Positions 66 through 31,842 of a DNA stretch of 31,842 nucleotides are shown one piece after another; position 1 is the stretch's first letter, and each line of letters begins with the position of its first letter. Position numbers and translations under genes: made by a program. This DNA comes from a virus: positions 1 through 31,842 of the IMG/VR virus record IMGVR_UViG_3300042905_000015. The stretch is one strand, 5' to 3'. Under the pieces are notes generated by a model that saw nothing but the letters and a program-made list of their open reading frames with translations, searched no databases and was not told the origin of the DNA.

Positions 66-430
66 TCGGGAAGGTTATGCGCTTTTTGCATAAAAATTGT
101 ACGGTTACGCGCACGCGCGCGTGTTGCATAAACGCAACGAAAAGAAAGCCAAACAACAAGAAAAGCATCGTCTGCTTTATACAATGACCATTATGTTAAG
201 TTGACCCTGAGTTATCCACAGAAAAAATACTACTCAGGCATTACAGTCTGAGTTATCCACAGGCAATTGTGGACAACTGTGGAAAAGTACCTGTGGACAA
301 GCGCCCACAGGCCGCCAGCCGGCCAATGGGGAGGGGGTAGGGCCGGCGCAAAAGGGCCGCAGGAACGGTAGCCCCGCGAACATTTTTTAAAATATTTTTA
401 ATTTTTATTTTTTCGTTTAACATCGCCCTA
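66..430. other. Non-coding region with origin-like features
   Basis: No convincing gene lies here. From left to right it holds: a direct repeat TTGCATAAA (86-94 and 124-132); a 19-bp strictly alternating purine/pyrimidine CG-rich tract (106-124); a small inverted repeat GTTGC/GCAAC (123-127, 134-138); the DnaA-box-like cluster (207-300, listed separately); a GC-rich inverted repeat GCCGGCC/GGCCGGC (318-324, 341-347); and an almost pure A/T run (382-420) just before the terminase start. Boxes followed by an AT-rich stretch are the layout of a DnaA-type replication origin. A packaging (pac or cos) site is an alternative or additional role because of the terminase neighbour. Weak promoter elements (TTGACC 201-206, AATACT 226-231, 19-nt spacing) might drive the terminase gene. 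Confidence 0.6.
207..300. promoter_or_regulatory. Cluster of five DnaA-box-like 9-mers
   Basis: TTATCCACA, the perfect E. coli-type DnaA box, occurs at 212-220 and 253-261 on the plus strand. Each lies inside a perfect 15-bp direct repeat CTGAGTTATCCACAG (207-221, 248-262) with a 41-nt period, close to four helical turns. Three more boxes lie on the minus strand: 268-276 (TTGTCCACA, one mismatch), 278-286 (TTTTCCACA, perfect to TTWTNCACA) and 292-300 (TTGTCCACA, one mismatch). Five boxes in 89 nt with two orientations is far beyond chance. Binding of host DnaA is inferred, for replication initiation or for transcription control of the terminase operon. Confidence 0.6.
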
Positions 431-9003: not shown

Positions 9004-9795
9004 ATGACTGAAGAAGTCCAAGCCCTAGCGGAAGTAGACTCCGCGCCAACCACGGATGTGACGGCCACACCTGAAGTTGCTGAAAGTACGCCGGAAGTCG
9101 CTGAGAACCAAGTCGAACAAGCCGCAGAGGAAAAGAAGTACTCTCAGGCTGAAATTGATGCGATGATCGGCAAACGCCTCGCAAGAGAGCAACGTAAGTG
9201 GGAAAGAGAGCAAGCAAATCGGTCTGCGGAATCGCAAATCGTGAAAGCTGCACCAACTGCGTCCGTTGACCAGTTTGAAAGCCCTGAAGCCTATGCGGAA
9301 GCAATGGCCTATCAGAAAGCCGAAGAACTATTGGCCAAACGTGAAGCAGCCAAGCAGCAATCAGCCGTTCTCGAAAGCTATCAAGAGCGTGAGGAAGCAG
9401 CGCGGGACAAGTATGATGACTTTGAACAAGTCGCCTACAACCCCAAGCTACCGATCACAAACGTGATGGCTGAAACGATCCAGTCTTCGGACATTGGGCC
9501 TGAGTTAGCGTACTACCTTGGCTCAAATCCAAAAGAAGCAGATCGCATCTCACGCATGACGCCACTCAGTCAGGCGAAAGAGATTGGGAGAATTGAAGCC
9601 AAATTGGCGTCAGCGCCCCCGATCAAGAAAACAACATCTGCGCCCGCGCCGATTTCTCCTGTCACTGCACGCTCCGCTGGAGCAGCAACTTTGGACACTA
9701 CAGACCCACGCTCTATCAAGAGCATGACGACTTCGCAGTGGATTGAAGCTGAACGTGCAAGACAGATTAAGAAGCTACAAGCACAGACCCGCTAA
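9004..9795 (+). CDS. Capsid scaffolding protein
   Basis: 263 aa, highly charged, Ala/Glu/Lys/Gln-rich and mostly helical. It has a disordered acidic N-terminus, a YSQAEIDAMIGKRLAREQRK motif typical of phage scaffold proteins, long coiled-coil stretches (residues about 50-140) and a basic helical C-terminus (WIEAERARQIKKLQAQ). P22-type scaffolds bind coat through a basic C-terminal helix and leave the procapsid during packaging. Its place directly before the coat gene supports the call. Confidence 0.85.
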   Translation: MTEEVQALAEVDSAPTTDVTATPEVAESTPEVAENQVEQAAEEKKYSQAEIDAMIGKRLAREQRKWEREQANRSAESQIVKAAPTASVDQFESPEAYAEAMAYQKAEELLAKREAAKQQSAVLESYQEREEAARDKYDDFEQVAYNPKLPITNVMAETIQSSDIGPELAYYLGSNPKEADRISRMTPLSQAKEIGRIEAKLASAPPIKKTTSAPAPISPVTARSAGAATLDTTDPRSIKSMTTSQWIEAERARQIKKLQAQTR

Positions 9796-30982: not shown

Positions 30983-31198
30983 ATGAACACACAAATACCC
31001 CCAGATGAGCGCCGACAACTGGCAGAAAAAGTTGGCATAAACGAGCAATACCTCTACCAATGCCTCACCGGCAGACGTGAGATGTCAGCATGGGAGGCCG
31101 TGAGAGTGGAGCAGGAAAGCCAAGGGCGGCTCACTCGCAAAATGGTGTGCCAGGGCAGCTGGCAGTCTATTTGGCCTGAGTTGGTGGAGACAACGTGA
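30983..31198 (+). CDS. YdaS/Cro-like transcriptional regulator
   Basis: 71 aa from ATG 30983; a TTG 9 nt upstream is a weaker start. Residues around 13-45 (QLAEKVGINEQYLYQCLTGR, then REMSAWEAVRVE) form a helix-turn-helix of the Cro/YdaS type, and the end SIWPELVETT is also typical. It lies divergent from the early operon with GCTAGA sites upstream of both, so it probably represses the early promoter and itself. No clear ribosome binding site precedes the ATG. Its stop overlaps the methyltransferase start (GTGA). Confidence 0.8.
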   Translation: MNTQIPPDERRQLAEKVGINEQYLYQCLTGRREMSAWEAVRVEQESQGRLTRKMVCQGSWQSIWPELVETT

Positions 31199-31842
31199 AT
31201 GAGTTGGCTCTTTTCGCGGGCGCTGGTGGAGGAATACTCGGAGGCCATTTGCTCGGATGGCGAACAGTCTGTGCCGTTGAATGGGAGCAATACCCCGCAA
31301 GCGTACTGTGCGCCAGACAAAATGACGGGCTTCTCCCGCCTTTCCCGATTTGGGATGACGTACAAACCTTTGACGGAAAGCCGTGGCGAGGAATTGTTGA
31401 TGTCGTATCTGGCGGCTTTCCATGCCAAGACATCTCAGCCGCGGGGGGGGGGGGGGAATTGATGGCGAAAGATCAGGAATGTGGCGAGAAATGGCGCGGA
31501 TCATTCACGAAGTACAGCCTGGATTCGTTTTCGTGGAAAACTCACCAATGCTCACTTCTAGGGGACTTGGAAGAGTTCTCGGAGACTTGGCCAAAATGGG
31601 GTTTGATGCGAAATGGGGAGTGTTGGGAGGCGAAGATGTTGGGGCCGTTCATAGAAGAGACAGAATTTGGATTGTCGCTTCCAACGATAGTCAAATCAGA
31701 CTCAAATGCGACATTAAAAAACAGATTCCTAAATTCACGCCATTTCCGTGGGGCAAAGATGTCAGAGGGATTGAGGATTTGCGAAACAGATCCGACCTCA
31801 GTCCATCCATCATTTGGCGAAAAGACTATGGGGTGGCCGACT
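31195..31842 (+). CDS. Cytosine-5 DNA methyltransferase (partial, frame broken at G-run)
   Basis: GTG 31195 overlaps the regulator stop; GGAG (31186-31189) is the ribosome binding site. Motif I is FAGAGGGILGG, the SAM-acid region is AVEWEQYP, motif IV with the catalytic Cys is SGGFPCQDIS, motif VI is FVFVENSPM, and motif VIII is HRRDRIWIVA. Up to 31443 the frame starts at 31195; after the 14-G run the methyltransferase sense continues in the frame beginning ATT at 31458, so a one-base gain (or two-base loss) in the run restores it. The 3' end, with motifs IX and X, lies outside the window. It would protect phage DNA from host restriction or mark it. Confidence 0.88.
   Translation, partial: MNELALFAGAGGGILGGHLLGWRTVCAVEWEQYPASVLCARQNDGLLPPFPIWDDVQTFDGKPWRGIVDVVSGGFPCQDISAAGGGGELMAKDQECGEKWRGSFTKYSLDSFSWKTHQCSLLGDLEEFSETWPKWGLMRNGECWEAKMLGPFIEETEFGLSLPTIVKSDSNATLKNRFLNSRHFRGAKMSEGLRICETDPTSVHPSFGEKTMGWPT
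31199..31842 (+). CDS. Overlapping reading frame inside the methyltransferase gene (partial, putative)
   Basis: From ATG 31199, 4 nt after the methyltransferase GTG, a second frame encodes a protein-like sequence: MSWLFSRALVEEYSEA, GFSRLSRFGMTYKPLTESRG, then after the G-run DQECGEKWRGSFTKYSLDSF, SWKTHQCSLL, FSETWPKWGLMRNGECWE and an end with HPSFGEKTMGWPT. With one G added it stays open for all 644 nt to the edge. The protein is rich in Trp and Cys and not low in complexity. I recall similar predicted phage proteins starting MSWL-SRALVEE, but have not checked this. It may be a true overlapping gene or a frame kept open by the methyltransferase codons. Confidence 0.45.
31443..31456 (+). repeat. 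14-G homopolymer run
   Basis: Fourteen consecutive G lie in the methyltransferase gene just after the catalytic PCQ motif. It is the longest homopolymer noticed in the window. The run coincides with the frame break of both overlapping frames. It may be a sequencing or assembly slip, or a real slippage site. Confidence 0.9.

Follow-up and report, generated by a model that had tools for sequence, protein, structure and literature searches.

A putative Xer recombination site joined to conserved DnaA boxes forms a candidate plasmid-like replication and resolution cassette in freshwater phages

XerCD recombination at the plasmid sites cer and psi is gated by ArgR/ArcA together with PepA, and the P1 origin oriR is a DnaA-dependent replicon. 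To our knowledge, no Xer system is under the control of a replication initiator, and XerCD recombination licensed by DnaA would be the first. The known accessory sequences adjoin the Xer core on its XerC side, as far as the available excerpts of two reports go (PMC11724359; PMC2409434). Similarly partial texts describe A. baumannii plasmid sites with T/CCGCCA centres that recombine without FtsK (PMC11705084) and a VGJphi attP whose central region departs from that of dif on its XerD side (PMC5357621). In the titles and abstracts searched (most subscription journals and all bioRxiv preprints lie outside them), we found no DnaA boxes joined to a phage Xer site. Here we describe such a junction near the start of a 31,842-nucleotide stretch of phage DNA from IMG/VR (hereafter the window, meaning the whole of this stretch), the features of which are as follows:

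3-65, + strand: C-terminal end of terS (Sf6-type small terminase); the frame ends in AKQRVLMDNSNVVDVEAKQA and a stop, same in L122:2923-3513 and L004:8352-8942
174-184, + strand: putative XerC arm, GCTTTATACAA, with two mismatches to the host-family dif arm ACTTTATACGA
185-190, + strand: putative 6-bp Xer central region, TGACCA
191-201, + strand: putative XerD arm, TTATGTTAAGT, identical to the Rhodoferax ferrireducens dif arm
212-220, + strand: DnaA box 1, TTATCCACA, exact to TTWTNCACA
253-261, + strand: DnaA box 2, TTATCCACA, exact to TTWTNCACA, 41 bp from box 1
268-276, - strand: DnaA-like box 3, TTGTCCACA, one off TTWTNCACA
278-286, - strand: DnaA box 4, TTTTCCACA, exact to TTWTNCACA
292-300, - strand: DnaA-like box 5, TTGTCCACA, one off TTWTNCACA
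324-420, + strand: GC-rich block then AT-run at the head of the terminase operon (nhmmer model match 334-399), a separate conserved element
431-1957, + strand: terL (phrog_2, E 1.1e-43)
31195-31842, + strand: start of a C5-methyltransferase (PF00145, phrog_363), frame-broken at a G-run and ending at the contig edge

An earlier note on this DNA had proposed a candidate DnaA-dependent origin here, composed of five DnaA boxes and the AT-run. The boxes are real and conserved, and that part of the proposal stands; its link to the AT-run and its argument from a missing primase do not, and the origin function is one that we infer. The count of five 9-mers within one base of TTWTNCACA was correct (three exact and two reading TTGTCCACA, with boxes 3-5 inverted), as was the perfect 15-bp repeat, CTGAGTTATCCACAG, at 207-221 and 248-262 with a period of 41. 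Sites matching TT[ATG]TNCACA number 11 in the whole window, 5 of them inside 100 bp, and 500 first-order Markov sequences of the window's length never gave more than 3 sites per 100 bp; the cluster is thus real and beyond chance. At loci chosen on the Xer site alone, position 5 was the sole freely varying box position (box 2: C 21, G 24, A 1), which is also the free position of TTATNCACA. The boxes are therefore DnaA-type, as the note had said, and are conserved far beyond close relatives. Host DnaA presumably binds them, and reliance on it is reasonable because the boxes are widely conserved in phages where no DNA polymerase A was detected. A phage-encoded DnaA-like protein was considered as the usual binder and rejected, since Bac_DnaA_C (PF08299) was found in just 1 of 39 records. 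That record, MW202483, encodes a small phage protein with DnaA domain IV (L082:7083-7379; Bac_DnaA_C, E 3.4e-19), and no cassette was seen in the 4 kb upstream of its terL.

Ten bases ahead of box 1 lies a 28-bp putative Xer site (174-201) that the earlier note had overlooked. Aligning 27 loci, among which the window and L001 are identical, revealed a near-invariant TATGT[TA]AAGT ten bases before box 1. In the available portion of its table, PMC2731167 gives the XerD arm of the Rhodoferax ferrireducens dif as TTATGTTAAGT and has TTATGTAAAGT in the Bordetella pertussis dif; the phage XerD arms read TTATGTTAAGT in 90 of 100 contexts and TTATGTAAAGT in the other 10. Using a degenerate dif pattern on 100 genomes from the family of a Burkholderiales MAG, we obtained exactly one match each in 8 genomes, all reading ACTT[TCG]ATACGA-TG[TC]ATA-TTATGT[TA]AAGT, and zero matches with the reversed pattern as a control. 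The window's XerD arm is identical to 6 of these 8 matches in the likely host family. When compared to the host-family dif, the phage XerC arm has one mismatch in 52 of 100 contexts and two in 37 (89 together). The site comprises an 11-bp XerC arm, a 6-bp centre and a conserved 11-bp XerD arm matching the inferred host family. The central regions across the 100 contexts are approximately YGNYCA, unlike the TGTATA of dif, and hence the phage site is not a copy of dif; set beside the A. baumannii plasmid sites, this hints at a plasmid-type use. Of the two halves of the element, the Xer site is the more strongly conserved, and the sequence-based assignments of both the Xer site and the boxes are well supported. 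Beside the Xer site, the window also has two matches to GGGNAGGG, the FtsK-loading motif, at 330-344 (GGGGAGGGGGTAGGG). This motif occurs in the GC block of many relatives and is missing from some, and since it is not kept in all relatives we give it no weight.

Positions 174-300 (127 bp) form, as we read them, one cassette of putative Xer site and boxes with fixed spacing. To avoid circular selection, we scanned IMG/VR with the Xer pattern alone and took the matches listed as contexts. Among these, 70 of 76 distinct contexts had a box no more than 130 nt away on the side of the XerD arm and 12 of 77 had one on the XerC side, against an expectation of about 0.01 box per context. Again among the matches listed, the slot that starts +10 relative to the XerD arm (box 1) held a box with at most one mismatch in 61 of 74 contexts, the one at +51 (box 2) was filled in 46 of 74, and 48 of 74 passed the TTATNCACA test at the inverted slot +66 (box 3); the median slot held 0 boxes across these 74 Xer-selected contexts. 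All loci fetched gave 138 distinct IMG/VR cassettes, a tally that includes loci picked by the box pattern.

The cassette is not confined to one phage lineage. In 96 cassette loci terL was in the locus, 49 belonging to the window's TerL group (A) and 47 to another (B), with TerL about 31% identical; in the remaining cassette loci neither of these TerLs is present. In both groups the cassette is upstream of terL, at a distance of up to 2.7 kb, with terS on its far side in the loci that we read. Many relatives have a 474-aa ORF without a Pfam match between cassette and terL (L024:8361-9785), which is missing from the window. The cassette is inverted in 10 of the 96 loci (2 and 8 in the two groups). 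Many phages with TerL more than 80% identical are without the cassette, and the lineage with about 31% identical TerL has it along with a PriCT_2-AAA_25 protein of its own. No cultured phage, plasmid or lysogen carrying the cassette came up in our searches, the best short matches of which were box stretches only; a matched Acinetobacter 'phage' record has genes that look chromosomal.

The AT-run at 382-420 is real, as the earlier note had it, and is interrupted by a single CG. The least stable 40-mer of the window is 382-421 and the most stable is 310-349, with 32 bp between them. We used cassette loci to build a model of this GC block with its AT-run; it matched 30 of 30 loci that have the Xer site, as well as 43 of 59 in which none was detected, some of these 59 having very short flanks and one (L009) being cut within its cassette. 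The element stands ahead of whichever gene opens the late operon (terS, terL or another). In two group A loci with an inverted cassette (L007 and L015) it stays in place, and an AT-run does likewise in L281. Boxes and AT-run as a single origin unit, which we considered, are therefore rejected: the AT-run occurs at those 43 loci and stays under inversion. Since the AT-run occurs box-free and does not follow inverted cassettes, the data do not support it as the unwinding element of these boxes, contrary to what had been proposed; an AT-rich stretch for unwinding that keeps a constant place relative to the boxes, as at oriC, was not found. The GC block and AT-run are an element of the terminase operon that is not specific to a replication or resolution function. 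A role in packaging or as a promoter, perhaps as a packaging site or late promoter, suits them better than one in unwinding at these boxes. Folding of 325-425 as DNA was no more stable than that of shuffles (z 0.56), promoter and terminator matches within 1-600 were weak consensus matches, and a search for known RNA families and tRNA found none.

The earlier note had also argued from the lack of an initiator, primase or polymerase gene in 31.8 kb. Inside the window, where part of the ORFs were scanned, this is uncontradicted; the window itself is incomplete. Its record has no end repeats, and contig L122 matches it with 99.96% identity across its first 10,139 bp and 100% across its last 213 bp, evidently being a different contig of the same phage. 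L122 bridges the two window ends and adds 3,235 bp absent from the window, and the bridged genome closes as a circle that would measure 35,077 bp. The bridge encodes a 696-aa toprim-RepA-type helicase, a 122-aa protein and TerS, the domains of which were read from L008 orthologues (Toprim_3 and AAA_25 in the helicase; Sf6_terminase, E 3.9e-31, in TerS). Because this helicase is encoded on the bridge, the argument from a missing primase falls. We found no protein structure match for the helicase by sequence. The 122-aa protein is taken for RusA by position alone, a Pfam search of its L008 orthologue giving no match. At the other end of the window, a run of 14 G at 31443-31456 disrupts the C5-methyltransferase frame, which is open in a relative (L008:5543-6379); the break may be an assembly error or phase variation.

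The cassette goes together with a type of replication gene. Of the 48 TerL relatives whose upstream sequence reaches 3.5 kb or more, 17 have the Xer site and 31 do not. All 17 encode a RepA-type helicase, with VirE/PolA matches in 0 of 17 loci; 16 of these helicases are of the toprim type, two being only 33-34% identical, and that of L198 is of the other type (45% identical). VirE-type genes occur in 28 of the 31 cassette-free relatives, mostly with PolA genes too, the remainder being L074, which has a RepA-type protein, and L081 and L197, which gave no match. The DNA_pol_A model, representing polymerase A as the one family covered by our DNA polymerase search, matched 0 of 38 cassette records versus 10 of 11 cassette-free records, and AAA_25 was above cut-off in 31 of 38 versus 1 of 11, the 7 cassette records without it being contigs of 10-28 kb. 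Shared ancestry inflates these counts, and the split within group A may represent few events; despite this kinship, the pattern is repeated in two kinds of RepA-type protein and in two TerL lineages. The boxes alone do not mark polymerase-less phages, as 7 of the 31 cassette-free loci have at least 4 boxes without an Xer site though VirE-type genes are present. In VirE-type relatives (L059:8930-9440; L035, L046, L057, L058, L063 and L195), 7-17 TTGTCCACA-type boxes stand upstream of terS, some of them head to tail at a 9-bp pitch, with no Xer site. In genome G036 (locus L074) a RepA-type helicase occurs with neither PolA nor the cassette; of its six boxes, two stand at 9325-9339 with a 14-bp spacing, and allowing up to 6 mismatches gave no Xer-like site. 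As a RepA-type relative free of both polymerase A and cassette, G036 (also L258-L259) offers a natural test case for where replication of such phages starts. Cumulative GC skew (detrended), a check that the earlier note had suggested, gave no consistent signal: in three group A genomes the maximum lay 0.2, 1.7 and 4.2 kb away from the cassette, and in three of group B the minimum lay 1.5-1.8 kb away, with opposite signs in the two lineages.

The likely hosts are Burkholderiales of the family Comamonadaceae, a call to which the dif-like arms contribute. Along with Rhodoferax and Burkholderiales, the MAG bins contain Methylococcaceae and actinobacteria, and for this reason the host call from bins is weak. 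The cultured Comamonadaceae phages described in PMC4657236 and PMC5964084 have DNA polymerases of their own.

We favor, with a probability of roughly 0.48, the reading that 174-300 is a self-contained, orientation-tolerant Xer-DnaA cassette serving as a plasmid-like replication and resolution locus. Host DnaA would occupy boxes 1-5, as their conservation suggests, and would nucleate initiation, probably at the cassette, on the circular phage genome, for which the phage supplies its toprim-RepA-type (primase-)helicase, a Sak4-type annealing protein, a DUF669 protein (PHROG: ssDNA-binding) and a Cas4-type exonuclease. Recombination between the copies could then produce multimers, and host XerC/XerD, judging from the arms, would recombine direct repeats of the 28-bp site to return monomers. 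The constancy of the 10-bp and 41-bp spacings points to contact between the two systems, in which case resolution could be tied to DnaA binding. Against this reading, inversion of the cassette at 10 of 96 loci leaves the AT-run in place, and an oriC-like geometry of boxes and unwinding element is not kept. The RepA-type G036 without the cassette, the Xer-free boxes of VirE-type loci, the inconsistent GC skew and the position of the boxes on the XerD side, where known accessory sequences are on the XerC side (PMC11724359), count against it too.

The main rival has DnaA as an accessory factor of Xer that wraps or bends the DNA at phased boxes and gates XerCD, with the replication origin elsewhere. 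It draws on the same fixed 10 bp between XerD arm and box 1 and on the 41-bp box spacing, as well as on the cassette moving and inverting as a unit independently of the AT-run. We hold it rather unlikely, because the known accessory sequences sit on the XerC side in the excerpt of PMC11724359 and the boxes here on the XerD side, because the literature searched held no phage DnaA-Xer link, and because Xer-free box arrays stand at the same place in VirE-type relatives, which argues that the boxes have a use of their own. A proposal that we hold doubtful is that DnaA, in phase with the XerD arm, licenses recombination by XerCD, and that phages without a polymerase would thereby resolve their circular multimers in step with the state of replication initiation in the host. 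Alternatively, the boxes might serve to titrate host DnaA or to control the late operon, no origin being involved, and the Xer site would be a separate stability element. The position upstream of the terminase and late operon in both TerL lineages would suit this, yet terL is up to 2.7 kb away, often behind the 474-aa ORF, the cassette may be inverted, and coupling to the type of replication gene is not predicted; we find it quite unlikely.

The Xer site could instead be an attP for XerCD integration at the host dif, as in integrative mobile elements exploiting Xer (IMEX) such as VGJphi, giving integrase-less lysogeny through host recombinases. Its arms match the host dif, a tyrosine integrase (PF00589) is absent from 40 of 40 cassette records, and a differing centre does not exclude integration, given that the VGJphi attP also departs from dif in the excerpt of PMC5357621 and that TGACCA retains the TG of TGTATA. 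Against it, 51 of 100 centres start with a base other than T, and exact patterns, which variants would escape, matched nothing: the full cassette in a collection of 84,980 species, and the junction pattern in 399 host-family genomes. We therefore consider integration at dif very unlikely, and less likely than either the plasmid-like locus or DnaA as Xer accessory. That TerS/TerL read all of this region as a packaging signal (pac/cos) seems highly improbable: the region lies between terS and terL, and the GC block and AT-run track the TerL family and differ in the other TerL lineage, but the cassette is common to phages with about 31% identical TerL and missing from many with TerL more than 80% identical. 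For 324-420 alone, a packaging role may well hold.

Taken as a plasmid-like locus, the cassette suggests that freshwater phages seemingly without a DNA polymerase of their own borrow host DnaA and Xer to copy and sort their genomes. If this is true, widespread uncultured freshwater phages would handle their genome in the manner of a plasmid through one 127-bp cassette that recruits both the host initiator and the host chromosome-dimer resolvase. If DnaA does license XerCD, a mobile cassette with this property would have spread among distantly related tailed phages, and the DnaA-Xer recombination link is testable in a small DNA fragment. The cassette may also serve as a sequence signature for such Burkholderiales phages, its dif arm pointing to hosts.

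When compared to known systems, the phage resembles epsilon15-like podoviruses in broad packaging genes and in TerL (about 39% identical to that of epsilon15); searching a phage collection by DNA similarity did not find the cassette. With the attP of IMEX (CTXphi, VGJphi and TLCphi) it shares a dif-like site in a phage lacking an integrase, as far as tyrosine integrases go; it differs in that no integrated copy at dif was found by exact pattern, centres are mostly unmatched to the host dif and the phages are tailed. DnaA-dependent replicons (oriC) likewise have a cluster of TTATNCACA boxes at fixed spacing, an AT-rich stretch nearby and, probably in common with these phages, the host polymerase; the cassette differs in its free orientation, its unlinked AT-run and the lack of any iterons or initiator found. 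The Burkholderiales chromosomal dif has an identical XerD arm, an XerC arm with mostly 1-2 mismatches and a 6-bp centre, but this centre is TGTATA (about YGNYCA in the phages), the inner XerC arm is ACGA (mostly ACAA in the phages) and no boxes are attached. Closest are cer of ColE1 and psi of pSC101, which are also host XerC/XerD sites with two 11-bp arms on an extrachromosomal circle, adjoined by sites for a host DNA-binding protein, and psi equals the phage site in its total of 28 bp. These are plasmid sites with ArgR/ArcA sites on the XerC side (PMC11724359, in excerpt), whereas the cassette belongs to tailed-phage genomes and has DnaA boxes on the XerD side.
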